Shown here piece after piece: positions 828-36,454 of a stretch of 40,668 bases of DNA (positions are counted from its first letter, which is position 1; each line of letters starts with the position of its first letter). The notes beneath the pieces were generated by a model. The model worked only from the letters and a program-made list of their open reading frames with translations, was not told the DNA's origin and made no database searches. The position numbers were made by a program, and so were the translations under genes. The stretch is from a virus, in the IMG/VR virus record IMGVR_UViG_3300021061_000033, positions 1 through 40,668 of that record; one strand, written 5' to 3'.

Positions 828-1060
828 ACGTGTTTGCCCCCGACCGGCTCACGCCGGAGGCCGTCGCCTACATGATCGGCCGCGTGCTCGACGACCCCCC
901 CGGCGCCGCCGCCTACCGGGAGGAATTGAGGCCGCGTCTCCGCGTTGTCCACGGCCTCGCCTACTCGACCCTTGACCTCTTCGACCCGATCTGGGAGTGG
1001 CACCGCCAACAAGGCCGGAGCGCTTGGGAGGCCGTCCGCTTTGAGTTCGGAACCCTATGA
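824..1060 (+). CDS. Small hypothetical phage protein, 78 aa
   Basis: A mixed-charge soluble protein with a tryptophan- and arginine-containing middle (EWHRQQGRSAWEAV). It is linked on both sides by ATGA overlaps (824-827 and 1057-1060), which fixes the start. No family recognised and no membrane segment. Confidence 0.6.
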   Translation: MNVFAPDRLTPEAVAYMIGRVLDDPPGAAAYREELRPRLRVVHGLAYSTLDLFDPIWEWHRQQGRSAWEAVRFEFGTL

Positions 1061-1344
1061 ACGCCCCCCTCCCCTACTCCGAACGGGACCGCCTCCGCCG
1101 CCTCGAAGCCGAGGAGAACGAGCTGCTCGACGTGGTGACGGACGTGCGGCGGCCGATGGCCGTCCGCGCCGTCGCCGAGCACCGGCTAGCGGCGCTCCGC
1201 CCCACGCTCGACGCCCTCCAGGCCCGCCTCGACGCCGAAGAACGGCGTGCCGAAGAACTCCCCACGCTCGCCGCCTCCGGTGCCCCGTCCGTCGGGCGTG
1301 GCGCGCGGGGGGCGGCGGCCTACGAGGGCGCGGTAGCTACGTGA
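1057..1344 (+). CDS. Hypothetical coiled-coil protein, 95 aa
   Basis: Residues 6 to about 70 have the heptad-like leucine, alanine, glutamate and arginine pattern of a coiled coil. The last 25 residues are glycine- and alanine-rich and probably disordered. Start and stop both lie in four-base overlaps (ATGA upstream, GTGA downstream), so it is probably co-translated with the DpdA-like gene. A partner role for that enzyme is possible, but nothing in the sequence shows it. Confidence 0.6.
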   Translation: MNAPLPYSERDRLRRLEAEENELLDVVTDVRRPMAVRAVAEHRLAALRPTLDALQARLDAEERRAEELPTLAASGAPSVGRGARGAAAYEGAVAT

Positions 1345-2003
1345 ACGCCGTGACCCCTCCCGCCCATACGAGGCCCGTGCGCATCCTGATCTCCGGCGGG
1401 GCCGACCTCGGCCTCGTCGCCGAGGAGACGGGGTGCCCCACGGGCACGCTCTTGGTGCCGACGTGCAACAACCGGCGGGTGCGGGAGGGGTACCCGTTCG
1501 CCGTGGACAACGGGGCCTTCACCGGGTTCAACCGCGACACGCGCGCGGCGTTCGGGGACATCCTCGCCAAGTCGAGGCCGCACCGGGAGCGGTGCCTCTT
1601 CGTGGCCGTCCCCGACGTGGTGGGGAGCGCGCGGCGGACGCTGGAGTGCTTCGAGGCGTGGCGCCGGAAGCTGAACGGGTGGCCCCTCGCGCTCGTCTGC
1701 CAGGACGGGCAGGAGCACCTCCCGATCCCGTGGCACCAGATCGAGGCCGTGTTCATCGGCGGCTCCACCGAGTGGAAGCTGTCGAAGCACGCCGAGCACG
1801 TCGTCCGGGCGGCGCAGATCCACGGCAAGCACGTCCACGTCGGCCGGGTCAACACGCCGGGCCGCTTCTCGCACTTCGAGGCGCTAGGGGTGGACTCCAT
1901 CGACGGCGGCAACCTCGCGTGGCGCCGTGAGCACCGCCTAGCGATCCGTCGCCGCCACGACGATGCCCCCGCCCTCTTCGAGCCCGAGCCCCTAGCCGCC
2001 TAA
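1341..2003 (+). CDS. dpdA: DpdA-like 7-deazaguanine DNA transglycosylase
   Basis: A 220-aa protein that resembles the small phage DpdA proteins, relatives of tRNA-guanine transglycosylase. Those enzymes swap guanine in DNA for a 7-deazaguanine such as preQ0. Visible landmarks are FAVDNGAF (53-60), VAVPD (88-92, candidate first catalytic Asp92), QDGQ (121-124), FIGGS (138-142), HVGRVN (166-171) and GVDSIDGG (183-190, candidate nucleophile Asp185 or Asp188). I chose GTG 1341, which overlaps the previous stop as GTGA; GTG 1350 is an alternative. The open frame continues upstream to 945 only as a shadow of the preceding gene. No queuosine-precursor genes (folE, queD, queE, queC) are in the window, so the base would have to come from the host. 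A hairpin follows the stop. Confidence 0.8.
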   Translation: MNAVTPPAHTRPVRILISGGADLGLVAEETGCPTGTLLVPTCNNRRVREGYPFAVDNGAFTGFNRDTRAAFGDILAKSRPHRERCLFVAVPDVVGSARRTLECFEAWRRKLNGWPLALVCQDGQEHLPIPWHQIEAVFIGGSTEWKLSKHAEHVVRAAQIHGKHVHVGRVNTPGRFSHFEALGVDSIDGGNLAWRREHRLAIRRRHDDAPALFEPEPLAA

Positions 2004-2839: not shown

Positions 2840-4717
2840 TTGCCGAGTCCGTCCCCCACCACCCCGCCGCTCAGCGGCGGATTCGACCCCAACGCCGTCC
2901 TTGCCCGCGCCTTGGAGCGGGGGCAGGCCGGTTCCCGAAACGACGCCGCCGTGTGGCTGTCCTGCCAGCTCCGAGACAACGGCACCCCGCTAGCCGAAGC
3001 GGAGGGGCTGCTGCGCGCGTTCGCCGCCGACGTGGGGACGCCTGAGGGGAAGGGCCGCTACACGAAAGCGGACGCCCTCGCCACCGTGCGGAGCGTCTAC
3101 CGCCGGCCCGCGCGTGAGCCGTGGGCCGGGAGCCAGACCGGAGGGGCGAAGCCGGCGAAGCGGCCCCGGAAGCGGTACGACCCCACGAAGGTTCCGAAGG
3201 TGAACGGGGAGCTAGGCGACGCCGACGCGGCGACGCGGGAGGCCGTCCGATTGCTGCAGATGGACCCCGAGGAGGCCGCCGCGCACTCCGCTTTCATCCG
3301 TAGGGAGGAGGAACGGATCGAGCGCGAGGCCGCCTCGCTCAACCTCGACATCGAGGACGCCCCGCTCTTCCCCCGCGCCGTCTACGACCTCCTCCCCCCG
3401 TCCATCGTCAACGCGGCGGCGCACTACACCGAGCCCCACCAGCCGGACGTGTTCACGGCCGGGCTCCTGCCCGTTCTCGGGGCGATGCTCCCGAACGTGT
3501 GGACGCGGCACCAGCGCCGCTACATCTCCCCCAACACGTACGTCGTCGTGACGGCGGAGACGGGCTCGGGGAAGAACGTGCTAGAGGACGTGCGGGCCGT
3601 GGCGAGGCCGCTATCGGACGCCCTCGCCCTCCGCCGGGCGGAGGAACTGGCCCGGTGGAAAGACGAGAAGGAGGCGGCCGAAGCGGCGGCGATGGCCGTC
3701 CCCACGGAGCCCCCCCATTACCGCCTCTTCGTCCCGGCCAACGCCTCGGCGACCCCGTTCCTCCGCGCGCTGCAGAAGAACGAGGGGCGCGGGCTCGTGT
3801 TCGAGACGGAGATATACCCGCTGACCCAGGCGAGGGGGAACGAGTGGGGCGACTACACCGCGACGCTCCTGCAGGCGTACGGCCACGAGACGGTGAGCCT
3901 CCTCCGTAGCCAGGAGGAGTTCTACATCCCGAACCCCTGCGTCTCCGTCACCCTCTCCGGCACGCCGGATCAAGTCCTCCGCCTCATCCCCTCCGTCGAG
4001 GACGGGCTGTTCTCGCGGTTCGGGTTCTTCTACTTCGTCGGGACCGACGAATGGATAGACCACGGCCCGGCCGCCGGCTTCGACGACTTCAACGCCACGC
4101 TCTCCATCTTCGGGGAGATGATGGCCCGGGCGTACCACACGCTGCACGGCCGGCCCGAACGGCTCTTCGTTGACATCTCCCCGGACGGGTGGGCCACGCT
4201 GCAGGAACCGTTCCGGCAGATGAAGGCGCGGGCCATCGCCAACGGGCAGCGCCCCCTCATCTCGGCCGTACACCGGGGGCCGATCATGGCCGCCCGGTTC
4301 GCCATGTGCCTCACGCTCCTCTCCCACATCGAGGAGGGGCGCGACCTCACGCCCACCGTTCGGAGCGTCGAGGTACGGGAGAAGGCGGTATGGGCCGGCT
4401 CCATGATCGCCGCCACGCTGGTTGACCACGCTTTCCGCCTCGCCCAGCACCTCCCGAAAGCGCAGGCCCTCAAGACGGCATACAGCCGGGACGTGCTTAC
4501 CCGGTTCGCCCTCGCCCTGCCGGATCGGTTCGACCACCAGGCCCTCCTCTCGACGGCGACGGCGCTGGAGCTCAAGCAGAGCGCCGCCTACAAGTACCGC
4601 GCGAAGCTGCTGCAGCTCGGGTGGGCGGAGCCGGACGGCTACGGGTGGTGCAAGAAATCGCCCCGCTGCCCTTCGCCCTCGTCCATTGGTACACATGGTA
4701 TTGAACATGATGACTAG
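2840..4717 (+). CDS. DUF3987-type replication ATPase/primase-helicase-like protein
   Basis: A 625-aa protein. Residues 30-95 resemble the primase C-terminal (PriCT-like) module, with the ending typical of 'S-Y-R-P-REPW'. Residues 175-600 resemble the DUF3987 P-loop ATPase family common in phage and mobile-element replication regions. The Walker A motif is AETGSGKN (239-246), with Asn where Ser or Thr is usual. VFETEIYPL at about 327-335 fits the Walker B position. An in-frame stop at 2831-2833 leaves TTG 2840 as the only nearby start. It is flanked by repeat clusters at 2731-2783 and 4733-4786, which supports a replication role. It overlaps the next gene by 11 bases. Confidence 0.75.
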   Translation: MPSPSPTTPPLSGGFDPNAVLARALERGQAGSRNDAAVWLSCQLRDNGTPLAEAEGLLRAFAADVGTPEGKGRYTKADALATVRSVYRRPAREPWAGSQTGGAKPAKRPRKRYDPTKVPKVNGELGDADAATREAVRLLQMDPEEAAAHSAFIRREEERIEREAASLNLDIEDAPLFPRAVYDLLPPSIVNAAAHYTEPHQPDVFTAGLLPVLGAMLPNVWTRHQRRYISPNTYVVVTAETGSGKNVLEDVRAVARPLSDALALRRAEELARWKDEKEAAEAAAMAVPTEPPHYRLFVPANASATPFLRALQKNEGRGLVFETEIYPLTQARGNEWGDYTATLLQAYGHETVSLLRSQEEFYIPNPCVSVTLSGTPDQVLRLIPSVEDGLFSRFGFFYFVGTDEWIDHGPAAGFDDFNATLSIFGEMMARAYHTLHGRPERLFVDISPDGWATLQEPFRQMKARAIANGQRPLISAVHRGPIMAARFAMCLTLLSHIEEGRDLTPTVRSVEVREKAVWAGSMIAATLVDHAFRLAQHLPKAQALKTAYSRDVLTRFALALPDRFDHQALLSTATALELKQSAAYKYRAKLLQLGWAEPDGYGWCKKSPRCPSPSSIGTHGIEHDD

Positions 4718-5072
4718 GACCGAGCCCGGCACTTTCCACGGTTTACACGGCGTGGAAACTGTGGAAACCCCGGAAACCGTGGAAACTGGCACCCCCCTAG
4801 CCACGAAGGGAGGCCGCCCGTTCACGCTCTACCTCTTCGGAGACGACGGGAGCGTGTTCGGGCTCGAACCCACGTCGTACGAGGGGCAGCCGGCCTACGG
4901 GATCGTCGCCCTCCGCTACTCGCTCGAGGTGGAGGTGTGCGGGAAGCTCCAGCGGGTGGACCTCGCCGGTTCCTTCGGGATCATCGAGCCGGACACCGTT
5001 CGGCGGGAGTACCTCGCCAAAGGGTTCCGGGTCGTGAGGGGCCATGCCATAACGGAGGCGGCCCATGCGTAG
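4707..5072 (+). CDS. Hypothetical protein with repeat-encoded N-terminus, 121 aa
   Basis: I chose ATG 4707, which overlaps the end of the replication gene; ATG 4695 and 4710 are also possible. The iteron-like DNA repeats at 4733-4786 encode residues 10-28, an unusual Val-Glu-Thr-rich stretch. Residues 30-121 look like a beta-rich domain containing TLYLFGDDGSVFGLEP and end RVVRGHAITEAAHA. The stop overlaps the start of the VRR-NUC gene. No family recognised. Confidence 0.6.
   Translation: MMTRTEPGTFHGLHGVETVETPETVETGTPLATKGGRPFTLYLFGDDGSVFGLEPTSYEGQPAYGIVALRYSLEVEVCGKLQRVDLAGSFGIIEPDTVRREYLAKGFRVVRGHAITEAAHA
4733..4786. repeat. Iteron-like TTTCCACGG cluster 2, inside a gene
   Basis: TTTCCACGG at 4733-4741 is followed by the variant TTTACACGG (4742-4750). 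Inverted copies follow: CGTGGAAAC (4751-4759), TGTGGAAAC (4760-4768) and CCGTGGAAAC (4777-4786). It has the same motif and the same plus-then-inverted order as cluster 1. It lies in the 5' coding part of the gene at 4707, recalling lambda, whose origin iterons lie inside gene O. Confidence 0.6.
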
Positions 5073-5499
5073 CCCCGAGCACCACGAGCAGGTCGCCGTC
5101 GTCAACTGGGCGCGGTTCATGGCCGACACCGGGCGCCTCCCCGAGCTGGCCCTCCTCTACGCGGTCCCGAACGGGGGCCACCGGGAGAAGGCGACGGCCG
5201 GGCGGCTGAAAGCCGAAGGCACCCGGCGCGGCGTCCCGGACCTCTGCCTCCCCGTCCCCCGCCTCACCGTGGAAGGCGGCTACCTCGCCGGCCTCTACGT
5301 CGAGATGAAGGCGCCGGGCGGGTCCACGTCGCCGGAGCAACGGGCGTGGATCGCCGCGCTCGGCTCGCTCGGATACCGCGCCGTCGTCTGCCGTGGGGCG
5401 GACGCCGCGAAGGCCGAGATCGAATCCTACCTCGCCCTCCCCCGCGTCGCCCCGCTCACCGTGGGAGATACCGTCCTCTTAGCCGCGCTCCCTCGATGA
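5065..5499 (+). CDS. VRR-NUC domain nuclease
   Basis: A 144-aa single-domain protein of the PD-(D/E)XK-like VRR-NUC family, common in phage replication modules and thought to cut branched DNA. Visible landmarks are EHHEQVAVVNWARF at residues 5-18, VPNGG (33-37), GTRRGVPDLCLPVPR (52-66, catalytic Asp59) and LYVEMKAPGG (75-84, catalytic Glu-x-Lys). The end GYRAVVCRG fits the last core strand. It overlaps the upstream gene by eight bases and the next gene by ATGA. Confidence 0.85.
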   Translation: MRSPEHHEQVAVVNWARFMADTGRLPELALLYAVPNGGHREKATAGRLKAEGTRRGVPDLCLPVPRLTVEGGYLAGLYVEMKAPGGSTSPEQRAWIAALGSLGYRAVVCRGADAAKAEIESYLALPRVAPLTVGDTVLLAALPR

Positions 5500-6878: not shown

Positions 6879-8534
6879 ATGCCCCCGCCGCTCCCCGTCG
6901 CTCAACTGTTGAGGGTGTCCACCGAAGGGCAGGCCGACCGCCTCGGGCTCCCGGCGCAGGAGACGGCGAACGGAGAGACGTGCCGCCGCTACGGGCTGGA
7001 GATCGTGGACACCGTGCGGATCGTGATGAGCGGCGCTGACGTGGCGACCTCACCGGGGATGGAGCAACTGCTTTCGTTGGTGGAATCGGGGCGAGCAAAG
7101 GGGATCGTCGTAGCGGCGTACGACCGGCTGTTCCGCCCCGAACGGTGGAGCGACCTGATAGTCCTCCAGCGGCTCCACGATGCCGGGGCCGGCATCTGGA
7201 CGCCGACGGGGCAGATAGACTTGACGACGGAGACGGGGCACATCCAGGCGACGCTCTACAACCTCTTCGCGGCGATGGAGCGGCGGCGCATCCGGGAGCG
7301 CATGGCCGCCGGGCGCGAGGAGAAGCGGAAGCGCGGCGACCACTGCGGGTTCAAGCACTCCATCCCGCTAGGGCTTGACTGGACAGAGGAAACTGGGTGG
7401 AGCTACACGCCGGAGATCGCCCGGGTGGCCGAGTGCTTCCGCCTCTTCCTCTCCGGCGAACGTTCCCCCGAAGCCATCGGCGCCCGCGTCGGGCTCGGGC
7501 GCACGACGGTGCGGTACGTCCTCCAGAACGAGGCTTATACCGGCTGGCGCGTCTACGACGAGAAGCGCGGGGCGGAGAAGCTCCCGTGCGGCGACCGCCG
7601 GAAGGTGAAGCGGGCCGAAGGCGAAGTGCTCCGCGTCCGCCTCCGCGACGCCTCGGGCACCCCGCTCCCGCCCGTCGTCAGCGAAGAGGACTTCGCCGCC
7701 ATCCAGCACCACCTCGAACAAGGGCGGCTCCGGAGCGCGCGGGCGAACGCGGAGACGGAAGGGCACTTCGTCTACCGGGGCGTCCTCTACTGCGCCGTGC
7801 CCGGCCCCGAAGGGGACCCCTGCGGGTGCGCGTTCTACCACTCGGCCGGGGCACGGTACACGAGCGGCCCGCGCCGCGGCGAGCGGAAGCGGTTCTACCA
7901 CTGCCGCACGATCAACCCCCGCTACGGCCCGCCGTGCGGGAACCCCTACCTCTCCGAACACCTCCTCGACCCCGTGCTCGACGCCGCCCTCGCCGGGAGC
8001 CTCACCGACCGGGCGTTGCTCCGCCGCGCTCTAGAACGCTTCCAGACGCGCGCGGGCGCCGAGGCGGTGTCTACCCCGGCCTTCGACGCCGCCGCGCTCC
8101 TCGCGCGCCTGGAAGAGCGTAGGGGCCGTGTGCTGGATGCGTTCGTGGACGGCGCCCTCACGCGGGAGGAACGGGACGCGCGGCTCGCCCGCCTCGACGG
8201 CGAGCGCGACCGCCTCCTCGCCCTCGGCCCCGTCGCCCCGTCGCCCGTTCCGGCGGCCCGTCTTAGCGCTTCGGACGTGCTCGCCGTGGTGCGGGTGTTC
8301 CGGCGGTTCCACCGCCGCAGCTACGAAGCGAAGCGGGCCGCGCTGGAGGCCGTGCGGCCCCGGCTGTTCGTGGACCGCTACGCCGTCCGGGGCGTCTGGC
8401 TCGACGGCAGGCTCTTCGGTGCAACGGAAGCCTCCGCCGGTCGTAACTCGGGCAACCTACTTCAAACGGTTGACGCTTTCGCTACCGCTCCGGGGCTCCC
8501 CCGGGGCGGGTTATACATCCCCCTCGCCGCCTAG
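6879..8534 (+). CDS. Large serine recombinase (phage integrase)
   Basis: A 551-aa site-specific recombinase that would integrate or excise the phage. The resolvase-like catalytic domain covers residues 7-150, with the nucleophile region LLRVSTEGQ (Ser14) and YDRLFRPE at 81-88. The long helix around AAMERRRIRERM (131-142) fits the E helix. The recombinase domain follows at about 160-280. Zinc-ribbon cysteines are at 305, 315, 317, 342 and 353. A coiled-coil segment is at about 405-450. The length is normal for the family. It lies in the middle of the window between early genes. No att site can be named from this sequence alone; attP would be expected near 6834-6878 or 8815-8884. Confidence 0.93.
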   Translation: MPPPLPVAQLLRVSTEGQADRLGLPAQETANGETCRRYGLEIVDTVRIVMSGADVATSPGMEQLLSLVESGRAKGIVVAAYDRLFRPERWSDLIVLQRLHDAGAGIWTPTGQIDLTTETGHIQATLYNLFAAMERRRIRERMAAGREEKRKRGDHCGFKHSIPLGLDWTEETGWSYTPEIARVAECFRLFLSGERSPEAIGARVGLGRTTVRYVLQNEAYTGWRVYDEKRGAEKLPCGDRRKVKRAEGEVLRVRLRDASGTPLPPVVSEEDFAAIQHHLEQGRLRSARANAETEGHFVYRGVLYCAVPGPEGDPCGCAFYHSAGARYTSGPRRGERKRFYHCRTINPRYGPPCGNPYLSEHLLDPVLDAALAGSLTDRALLRRALERFQTRAGAEAVSTPAFDAAALLARLEERRGRVLDAFVDGALTREERDARLARLDGERDRLLALGPVAPSPVPAARLSASDVLAVVRVFRRFHRRSYEAKRAALEAVRPRLFVDRYAVRGVWLDGRLFGATEASAGRNSGNLLQTVDAFATAPGLPRGGLYIPLAA

Positions 8535-31145: not shown

Positions 31146-31234
31146 TGGCAGGCGAAGTAGAGCGTGGGGACGCCGATGAGGATCGTGAGGAGGGCGGCGA
31201 GCATGAGGCGGGGGCCGGTCATCCGGTCAGGCAT
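31142..31234 (-). CDS. Membrane microprotein, 30 aa
   Basis: ATG 31234 overlaps the methyltransferase stop; ATG 31222 gives 26 residues. The hydrophobic run LMLAALLTILIGVPTLYFAC is a single membrane segment. The stop overlaps the DUF1508-like start as ATGA. Coupling on both sides supports it. Confidence 0.45.
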   Translation of the reverse strand: MPDRMTGPRLMLAALLTILIGVPTLYFACQ

Positions 31235-32318
31235 CGGCGAAGGCTTCCAGTTGCTTCGGGGTGGGGACGAACGCGGCCAGCCGGGCGCGGGCGATCTCGA
31301 CGTACTCCGCCTCGCGCTCGACGCCGACGAAGCGGAGCCCTTCGTGGAGGCAGGCGAGGCCGGTGGTGCCGCTCCCGGCGAAGGGGTCGAGGACGAGGCC
31401 GCCGGGCGGGGTGACGAGGCGGACGAGCCAGCGCATGAGCGCCAGCGGCTTCACCGTGGGGTGGGTGTTGCGCGAGGGGGCGCGCTCCCCCGTCCGATGC
31501 ACGCCGTCGCTGCACTCGTGCTCGGGGTTGTTCAGCGGTGCCCCGGCGTATGCCTTGCGGGCGCGCGGCTCTAGGTGCCCGAGCCCGGCCTCCCGCTCGC
31601 TCCGGCTCGCCTTGGCGCAGTAGAAGAAGCGGGCGGCGGTGCCCTTGTCGTCGTACGAGGGCGCCTGTTCCATCGGGCCGTAGTTGCCGTGGAACCCGCT
31701 GCCCCGGCGCTTTCCGTTGCTGACGGCCCCTTTAACTTCCCCGAACCGGGCGAAGGCGTCGAGCACCTCGGCGCTCCCGTCGTGGGCGACGTTGGCGGGC
31801 CAGCGACCAAGAGAATGTCCCGGCTTGTTCTCGTACGTCTCGTGAGCCGGCCGCCTCCATCCTTCGTGAACGCCTGCGCACTTCCCATACGAAGGGCCGC
31901 CGCCGGGGACGGGCTCGCCGGGATTGATGCGGCAGGCGTCCACGTTCAGCGGCGTCACCGGCCCCTTCCGCGCCACGCAGACGGGCTCGTAGGCCGGCTT
32001 CAGCTTGCTCCCGTGCTTGGGGAAGCCGGAGCCGTAGAGCCAGCACACGGTATCTTCGATGGCGAACCCGGCGTCCTCGATGTTCACCCATATCCGGTGC
32101 ATCGTCCGGGTGCCGCCGAAGCACAGGAGCCGCCCGCCGTCGGCGAGCACGCGGTACACCTCGGCCCACACGTCCACGCCGGGCACGTCGTAGTCCCACC
32201 GCCGCCCCATGAACCGGAGCCCATAGGGGGGGTCGGTCACGACGGCATCGACGGCCCCCGGCTCCATCGAGGCGAGGTGGTCGAGGCAGTCGGCGTGGAT
32301 GATCGAGGCGTCAGGCAC
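31227..32318 (-). CDS. DNA methyltransferase, N6-adenine/N4-cytosine type, 363 aa
   Basis: Catalytic TDPPYGLRFMG (28-38) precedes the AdoMet-binding LDPFAGSGTT (310-319), the motif order of beta-class amino-methyltransferases. Residues 115-270 hold a target-recognition-like insertion with NVDACRINPGEP and HPTVKPLALMRWLV near the end, a phrase common in phage orphan methyltransferases. The start is GTG 32318, overlapped by a possible 30-codon membrane peptide upstream. No restriction enzyme is nearby, so it is probably protective or epigenetic. Confidence 0.9.
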   Translation of the reverse strand: MPDASIIHADCLDHLASMEPGAVDAVVTDPPYGLRFMGRRWDYDVPGVDVWAEVYRVLADGGRLLCFGGTRTMHRIWVNIEDAGFAIEDTVCWLYGSGFPKHGSKLKPAYEPVCVARKGPVTPLNVDACRINPGEPVPGGGPSYGKCAGVHEGWRRPAHETYENKPGHSLGRWPANVAHDGSAEVLDAFARFGEVKGAVSNGKRRGSGFHGNYGPMEQAPSYDDKGTAARFFYCAKASRSEREAGLGHLEPRARKAYAGAPLNNPEHECSDGVHRTGERAPSRNTHPTVKPLALMRWLVRLVTPPGGLVLDPFAGSGTTGLACLHEGLRFVGVEREAEYVEIARARLAAFVPTPKQLEAFADA

Positions 32319-35899: not shown

Positions 35900-36454
35900 C
35901 TAGCGTCCGCCGGTGCGGGCGACGTGGGCGGCGCGGAGGGCGTCCCCGACCTCCAGGCGGGGGATTTCGGGCGACGCCGGGACCTCCACGATGAAGCGGT
36001 CGGGCTGCCCGTCCACGGTGACGAGGTAGGCGCGGAGGGACATGACCCCCTCGACCGGCACGTAGCGCGGGCCGAAGTCGGCGGGGGTGTGCCCGTTCCC
36101 GTTCCCGTTCCCGTTCCCGTTGTGGCGGGCGAGGGCGCGGGCCTCCTGCTCCGGCGTCAGCGGCGGGAGCGCCGTCGAGCCCTCCCGCTGGAGGTAGGCG
36201 CCGCGGGCCTCCCGCACCCCCTCCCCCTTGTGGAGCCACCGGACGGACACCCCGGCGTGGGCGGCGATGGCCTCGCGGTTCTTCGGCTGCGGGATGGACT
36301 CCCCGTTCAGCCAGCGGTACGCGTTCGTCTCGTCCACCTTGGCGATGCCGGCGAGCTGCTGCGCGGTGTAGCCGAGGGAGCGGAGGCGCTCGGCGAACGC
36401 GGCGCGGAGCGCGGCCGCCTTGGGGTCGTCGTCGTTCCTCTTCGTGGGGGCCAT
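35900..36454 (-). CDS. XRE-family repressor (CI-like), 184 aa
   Basis: The helix-turn-helix domain covers about residues 15-78 (AFAERLRSLGYTAQQLAGIAKVDETNAYRWLNGESIPQPKNREAIAAHAGVSVRWLHKGEG), the plan of phage CI/CII-like regulators. A linker with five Asn-Gly repeats (112-121) leads to a C-terminal domain (128-184, YVPVEGVMSL, FIVEVPASPEIPRLEVGDAL). That domain lacks a visible Ser/Lys autocleavage pair, so SOS-type self-cleavage is doubtful. It is divergent from the MerR-like gene at 36594, with repeated TTGCG motifs between. Confidence 0.82.
   Translation of the reverse strand: MAPTKRNDDDPKAAALRAAFAERLRSLGYTAQQLAGIAKVDETNAYRWLNGESIPQPKNREAIAAHAGVSVRWLHKGEGVREARGAYLQREGSTALPPLTPEQEARALARHNGNGNGNGNGHTPADFGPRYVPVEGVMSLRAYLVTVDGQPDRFIVEVPASPEIPRLEVGDALRAAHVARTGGR
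36092..36121 (+). repeat. Five 6-bp CCCGTT repeats in the repressor linker
   Basis: Perfect tandem copies from 36092 to 36121 encode the Asn-Gly linker. Copy changes would alter linker length without a frameshift. Confidence 0.92.

Follow-up and report, generated by a model that had tools for sequence, protein, structure and literature searches.

Can a phage that carries a DpdA-like gene, and no gene for synthesis of the precursor preQ0, modify its DNA with a deazaguanine drawn from its host? The question is raised by a gene at 1341-2003 of the window, by which we mean the whole 40,668-nucleotide stretch of IMG/VR virus record IMGVR_UViG_3300021061_000033. The first-pass annotation described a stand-alone DpdA-like enzyme in a temperate-looking phage, with the DpdA/TGT landmarks VAVPD, FIGGS and GVDSIDGG, dependent on the host queuosine pathway and encoded at the end of five coupled genes that might tune or complete the modification. 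The gene, its candidate active-site codons and the other features discussed are:

1057-1344, plus strand: small gene, function unknown, not conserved with the DpdA-like gene elsewhere
1341-2003, plus strand: compact DpdA-like (TGT-superfamily) gene, 220 aa, GTG start
1506-1508, plus strand: codon of D56 (DNGAF), aligned with the Asp of DpdA DSGAF (Sonali D37, 9g D72)
1614-1616, plus strand: codon of D92 (VAVPDVVG), aligned with the Asp of DpdA LDVIGD (Sonali D73, 9g D114), 68 of 68 relatives
1758-1763, plus strand: codons of G140-G141 (FIGGS), aligned with DpdA IGG and TGT AIGG, 65-68 of 68 relatives
1836-1838, plus strand: codon of H166, aligned with the DpdA-signature His (9g H196, Sonali H155), 68 of 68 relatives
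1902-1904, plus strand: codon of D188 (GVDSIDGG), aligned with the E. coli TGT nucleophile D264, 68 of 68 relatives
6879-8534: serine integrase
35900-36454: CI-like repressor

The GTG start at 1341 overlaps the stop of the preceding gene (1057-1344) by 4 nt. An alternative GTG start at 1377 is possible and would give a protein of 208 aa; homologue starts align near V13, and residues 1-10 are modelled with low confidence by AlphaFold. All three landmarks are present in the 220-aa open reading frame: VAVPD at residues 88-92 (1602-1616), FIGGS at 138-142 (1752-1766) and GVDSIDGG at 183-190 (1887-1910). G140-G141 correspond to G162-G163 of 9g DpdA in the profile alignment, D188 also falls on D215 (9g) and D174 (Sonali) of DpdA, and D56 corresponds by motif to the Asp of TDSGGFQ (D89 of E. 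coli TGT). Conserved in at least 64 of 68 relatives each are D56, N57, P91, D92, Q121, D122, G123, F138, G140, G141, K146, H166, G168, R169, N171, R175, D188 and G189. Chance does not explain the quoted motifs, since D92, G140/G141, D188 and G189 show little or no variation in these 68 diverse relatives. Two active-site Asp, on which the first-pass annotation had staked its reading, are both present and aligned to DpdA (D56 in 66 of the 68, D188 in every one).

The 220-aa protein matches PHROG_15826 ('unknown function') with an E-value of 6e-40 and is not recognised by PHROG_887, 'queuine tRNA-ribosyltransferase' (E 0.079). Pfam and NCBIfam hold no family for it, and PDB sequence searches returned chance matches only. 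Structure prediction and an HHsearch-type comparison with phage DpdA, both recommended earlier, were more informative. The AlphaFold model (pLDDT 92, pTM 0.86) has a TGT-like TIM-barrel fold. In the PDB, Foldseek ranks tRNA-guanine transglycosylases first rather than proteins of another fold (E 3.9e-5, probability 1.00), at a modest TM-score of about 0.5, and matches among viral models include queuine tRNA-ribosyltransferases of phages and archaeal viruses. Aligned with hhalign, the family profile matches a profile of ten phage DpdA, 9g included, with E 4.3e-8 and a score of 59.4; none of 40 column shuffles scored above 19.5. Significance was reached only with this proper DpdA profile; a 38-sequence profile gave no significant match to single sequences of E. 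coli TGT or phiG7 DpdA. The comparison with bacterial TGT alone is at noise level (score 23.6 versus a shuffle maximum of 23.1) and is not counted as independent proof. The 9g DpdA is an experimentally studied enzyme, and its H196 serves Hutinet et al. (2019; PMC6884629) as a mark of DpdA.

On alignment and predicted fold, the product of 1341-2003 is a compact DpdA relative that keeps the aligned active-site positions and lacks the C-terminal third. The proposed kinship with DpdA and TGT therefore stands, with the refinement that the protein belongs to a distinct compact family, PHROG 15826, and not to canonical DpdA. The compact DpdA of the window is real and likely active.

The record is that of a high-GC tailed phage encoding terminase, portal, DNA methyltransferase, serine integrase and CI-like repressor, the last two in agreement with the temperate character suggested for it. 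It is classed as 'linear' and may be a fragment, with the DpdA-like gene 1.3 kb from the left end; within its 40,668 bases we identified no match to VUT (PF02592), QueC (PF06508), QueD (PF01242), GTP cyclohydrolase (PF01227), radical SAM proteins (PF04055, QueE) or full-size DpdA (phrog_887). The reported lack of preQ0 synthesis genes in the window is thus confirmed, and it extends to the transport gene (VUT). The five upstream genes (112-309, 306-581, 585-827, 824-1060 and 1057-1344) are indeed closely packed, with 4-nt overlaps or near contact between neighbours. They have no credible Pfam or PHROG match and no homologue in any other compact-DpdA locus. The suggestion that they tune or complete the modification is not borne out, and we rejected them as a module because they occur with no other relative.

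Other genes of the window have counterparts elsewhere. The DNA methyltransferase gene (31227-32318, minus strand) lies far from the DpdA-like gene; in a cluster of 13 loci (L006, L057, L058, L082 and L102 among them), DNA methyltransferase genes lie at most 2.5 kb from compact DpdA. The DpdA-like gene of the window is followed by genes for a DUF3987 protein and a VRR-NUC nuclease (2840-5499), and a VRR-NUC gene is likewise found downstream of the compact DpdA gene of Arthrobacter phage Aoka (L015:10182-10547). Portal and integrase homology gave no host assignment for the window phage, and the phage collection contained no near DNA relative of window positions 1-25000.

The family is widespread. 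By tblastn it was identified in 24 phage records (Mycobacterium, Arthrobacter, Rhodococcus, Escherichia, Vibrio, Synechococcus and Erythrobacter) and in 184 plasmids. Alignment-based scans confirmed at least 573 stretches in IMG/VR and a further 52 relatives in genomes, where the family also occurs in prophages; scans of viral and genome contigs with single-protein patterns found no relatives, the patterns being too specific. The median length is 206 aa (68 relatives), with a core of about 205 aa. Majeke 54, Aoka 40 and Sonali 81 belong to the same family, at about 40% identity, and we found no reported functional test of these proteins in the literature. Among laboratory phages of M. smegmatis, Majeke and Phegasus encode compact DpdA, and Phegasus has a confirmed VUT gene. 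In the Escherichia phage phiG7 the compact gene is split into two overlapping open reading frames (L002:11929-12521) that adjoin genes for DNA polymerase and a sliding clamp, and the full-size DpdA of this phage is intact. SHIN8 has the same split, judged by its match pattern.

The evidence for supply of the base from outside comes from genes that accompany the family. We chose 49 viral records by their DpdA gene alone, and converted record positions to locus positions by hand. As the DpdA gene was the sole criterion for this first locus set, the choice of loci did not build in the partner pattern. Twenty-nine of the 49 records carry a single type of preQ0 gene: VUT/YhhQ in 10, QueC in 7 (above cut-off) and QueD-like in 12 (including three below cut-off), and these sets of records do not overlap. 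The search covered each record from end to end, and in all 29 the partner gene adjoins compact DpdA and is read in the same direction, where chance would give about 2 of 29 (arithmetic, for a 1.5-kb target per record). The one exception to adjacency is a sub-threshold QueC-like match (14.5 bits) in record G038. FolE was absent from the 49 records, as was full-size DpdA, phrog_887 matching the compact gene alone. In five further loci the adjoining gene encodes QueE. A partner is present at 54 of 80 IMG/VR loci, or 19 of 35 after collapse at 75% identity. Partners lie upstream or downstream of the compact gene, often overlapping it by a few bases. The reciprocal search placed a compact DpdA gene directly downstream in 54 of 55 partner-type viral QueC loci, and 12 of 80 viral VUT genes adjoin compact DpdA (over 170 bits). 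Large neighbour clusters around the compact gene were also considered and rejected, as they consist of alternative-frame or antisense reading frames rather than real neighbours.

About 50 of the 80 viral VUT loci have another compact DpdA type directly upstream of VUT, which scores in PHROG_887. This second type is about 226 aa long (L180-L259, for example L200, L236 and L253) and has the pattern HYHGTPLTPR...WDNGAFS...IPDVI...WHM...FGSS...HMLRG...SVDSTNVARN. PHROG_4899 ('unknown function') corresponds to the VUT/YhhQ-type transporter (L016:5596-6144 and relatives) and is probably a 7-deazaguanine importer.

The partner label changes about 20 times in the protein tree. The window phage, a partnerless member, is nested in a clade (support 98/96) that holds members with QueC, QueD, QueE or VUT as well as partnerless ones. 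No preQ0 partner was found in the plasmid-type clade (Pseudomonas, Paraburkholderia and Caballeronia). In Burkholderiales loci (L109-L147, Caballeronia/Paraburkholderia), inspection by eye identified a PP-loop ATPase resembling PAPS reductase near compact DpdA and an SMC-like ATPase upstream of it. A PAPS reductase-like PP-loop ATPase is also encoded near the compact gene of Rhodococcus phage ReqiPine5 (L005:6649-7566). These PP-loop and SMC-like ATPases may be involved in further base chemistry.

A phage with one pathway gene profits only if its host supplies the remaining steps. Among the hosts of genomic relatives, TGT was identified in 22 of 23, and 17 of 23 gave a strong match to QueC (over 190 bits). 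Longispora, which has a VUT-linked compact DpdA, has neither a QueC nor a TGT match. QueC is the enzyme that makes preQ0. YhhQ, present in about 9% of bacterial dpd islands (PMC11888242), is an importer of preQ0 (cited in the same paper). Together, these two activities make preQ0 the best candidate base. Because the majority of relatives have one supply gene or none, the window phage most likely takes its precursor from the host. Supply by the host had already been proposed for stand-alone phage DpdA (Hutinet et al., 2019, PMC6884629). As the source named by the first-pass annotation, the host queuosine pathway is favoured for the family by the single-gene partners of 29 of the 49 relatives, and the window itself is partnerless. 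Judged from gene content, these partners make an external deazaguanine supply much more likely than the motifs alone would.

Our preferred reading, to which we give a probability of about 0.74, is that compact DpdA swaps guanine in phage DNA for a host-derived 7-deazaguanine, most likely preQ0, and that the exchange shields the DNA from restriction. A DNA rather than tRNA substrate, preQ0 as the base and protection from restriction are each predicted. Base exchange by an Asp nucleophile is the established mechanism of TGT. Its extension to DpdA has been put forward as a proposal (PMC6884629). In the compact enzyme, D188 would be the nucleophile, attacking C1' of deoxyguanosine so that guanine leaves. 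D56 and D92 would act as partner acids, in a pocket with G140-G141 that would hold the 7-deazaguanine base that replaces guanine. The host queuosine pathway or an outside source would provide the base, with most relatives contributing at most one supply gene (the YhhQ/VUT importer, QueC, QueD or QueE). The window phage, with no supply gene in the window, would be wholly host-dependent and would need a host with a sufficient preQ0 pool. The resulting preQ0-type mark would then shield phage DNA from restriction.

The same exchange could instead take place in tRNA or other RNA of the infected cell, altering translation, with the partners supplying the same precursor. The protein has the fold of a tRNA enzyme, VUT, QueC, QueD and QueE belong equally to the queuosine tRNA pathway, and Longispora combines VUT and the compact gene with no TGT match of its own. 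However, phage DpdA, with which the significant profile match was obtained, acts on DNA, and the compact protein retains the DpdA-signature His. A TGT is already encoded by nearly all of the hosts sampled. Moreover, the protein ends about 30 residues past the nucleophile, has no Cys there and lacks the C-terminal region that bears H333 in bacterial TGT. We regard a tRNA or RNA substrate as unlikely.

Sonali (Arthrobacter), phiG7 (Escherichia) and R29Z (Vibrio) phages do not fit the preferred reading well, and neither does the plasmid-type clade with its lack of a preQ0 partner. The three phages encode full-size DpdA and preQ0 synthesis genes (FolE, QueC and QueD) alongside the compact gene, and the compact enzyme may not perform bulk insertion there. 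It might have another deazaguanine job, such as a second base, particular sites beside a bulk DpdA, or removal of the base. As a general account this is improbable, given that the 49 viral records yielded no other DpdA-type protein and that the supply gene adjoining in 29 of them fits insertion rather than removal. That the protein is a diverged, inactive TGT-fold protein with a binding or regulatory role, as its small size and the apparent loss of function through the two-ORF split in phiG7 would suggest, is very improbable, because the catalytic Asp, Gly-Gly and His columns vary little or not at all among the 68 relatives, window included, and different supply genes recur beside the compact gene across the tree.

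Returning to DNA modification with a host-derived base, the interest is mainly in the family-wide partner pattern rather than in the window alone. Gene content suggests, at about even odds, that compact DpdA forms a widespread, distinct class in which one enzyme is combined with at most one interchangeable supply gene (importer, QueC, QueD or QueE) to relieve whichever preQ0 step is limiting in the host. In the sampled tree, gain, loss or replacement of the supply gene would have occurred about 20 times, and partnerless members would live on the host pool. In the literature searched we found no report of such a family. If the reading is correct, PHROG 15826 (at least 570 IMG/VR matches) and its neighbour PHROG 4899 (VUT type) would be explained, and phages, plasmids and prophages would mark their DNA by minimal means, drawing on the tRNA-modification metabolism of the host. 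Phage genes of the 'singleton DpdA' and 'orphan QueC/QueD/QueE' kinds would become a testable pair, and host queuosine status would predict phage resistance to restriction.

Several known systems resemble the compact family in part. Self-sufficient deazaguanine phages (G+ or preQ0 group) own FolE, QueD, QueE and QueC, none of which is matched in the window. Bacterial TGT (E. coli Tgt) shares the fold and the nucleophile position, with D188 aligned to D264, but is 375 aa long versus 220 aa, and the compact protein lacks its C-terminal zinc-binding and tRNA-contact region. Closer is phage DpdA (9g/Sonali, PHROG 887), which has the TGT fold, the Asp/Asp/Gly-Gly/His/Asp constellation and a preQ0-gene context. 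It differs in length (271-357 aa in the ten proteins used, versus about 205 aa) and is accompanied by FolE-QueD-QueE-QueC, whereas the compact family usually has one supply gene or none. The SEA-PHAGES label 'DpdA-like tRNA-guanine transglycosylase' on Majeke 54, Aoka 40 and Sonali 81 indicates that the kinship was known to annotators. Singleton DpdA, compared here by its description, is likewise a DpdA homologue that occurs without preQ0 synthesis genes, and the consulted part of that account (Hutinet et al., 2019; PMC6884629) makes no mention of a single supply gene beside it. DpdA2 of Vibrio phage nt-1 is also a divergent phage DpdA; it lacks the H196 histidine according to the same paper, whereas the compact family keeps the equivalent H166 in all 68 relatives.
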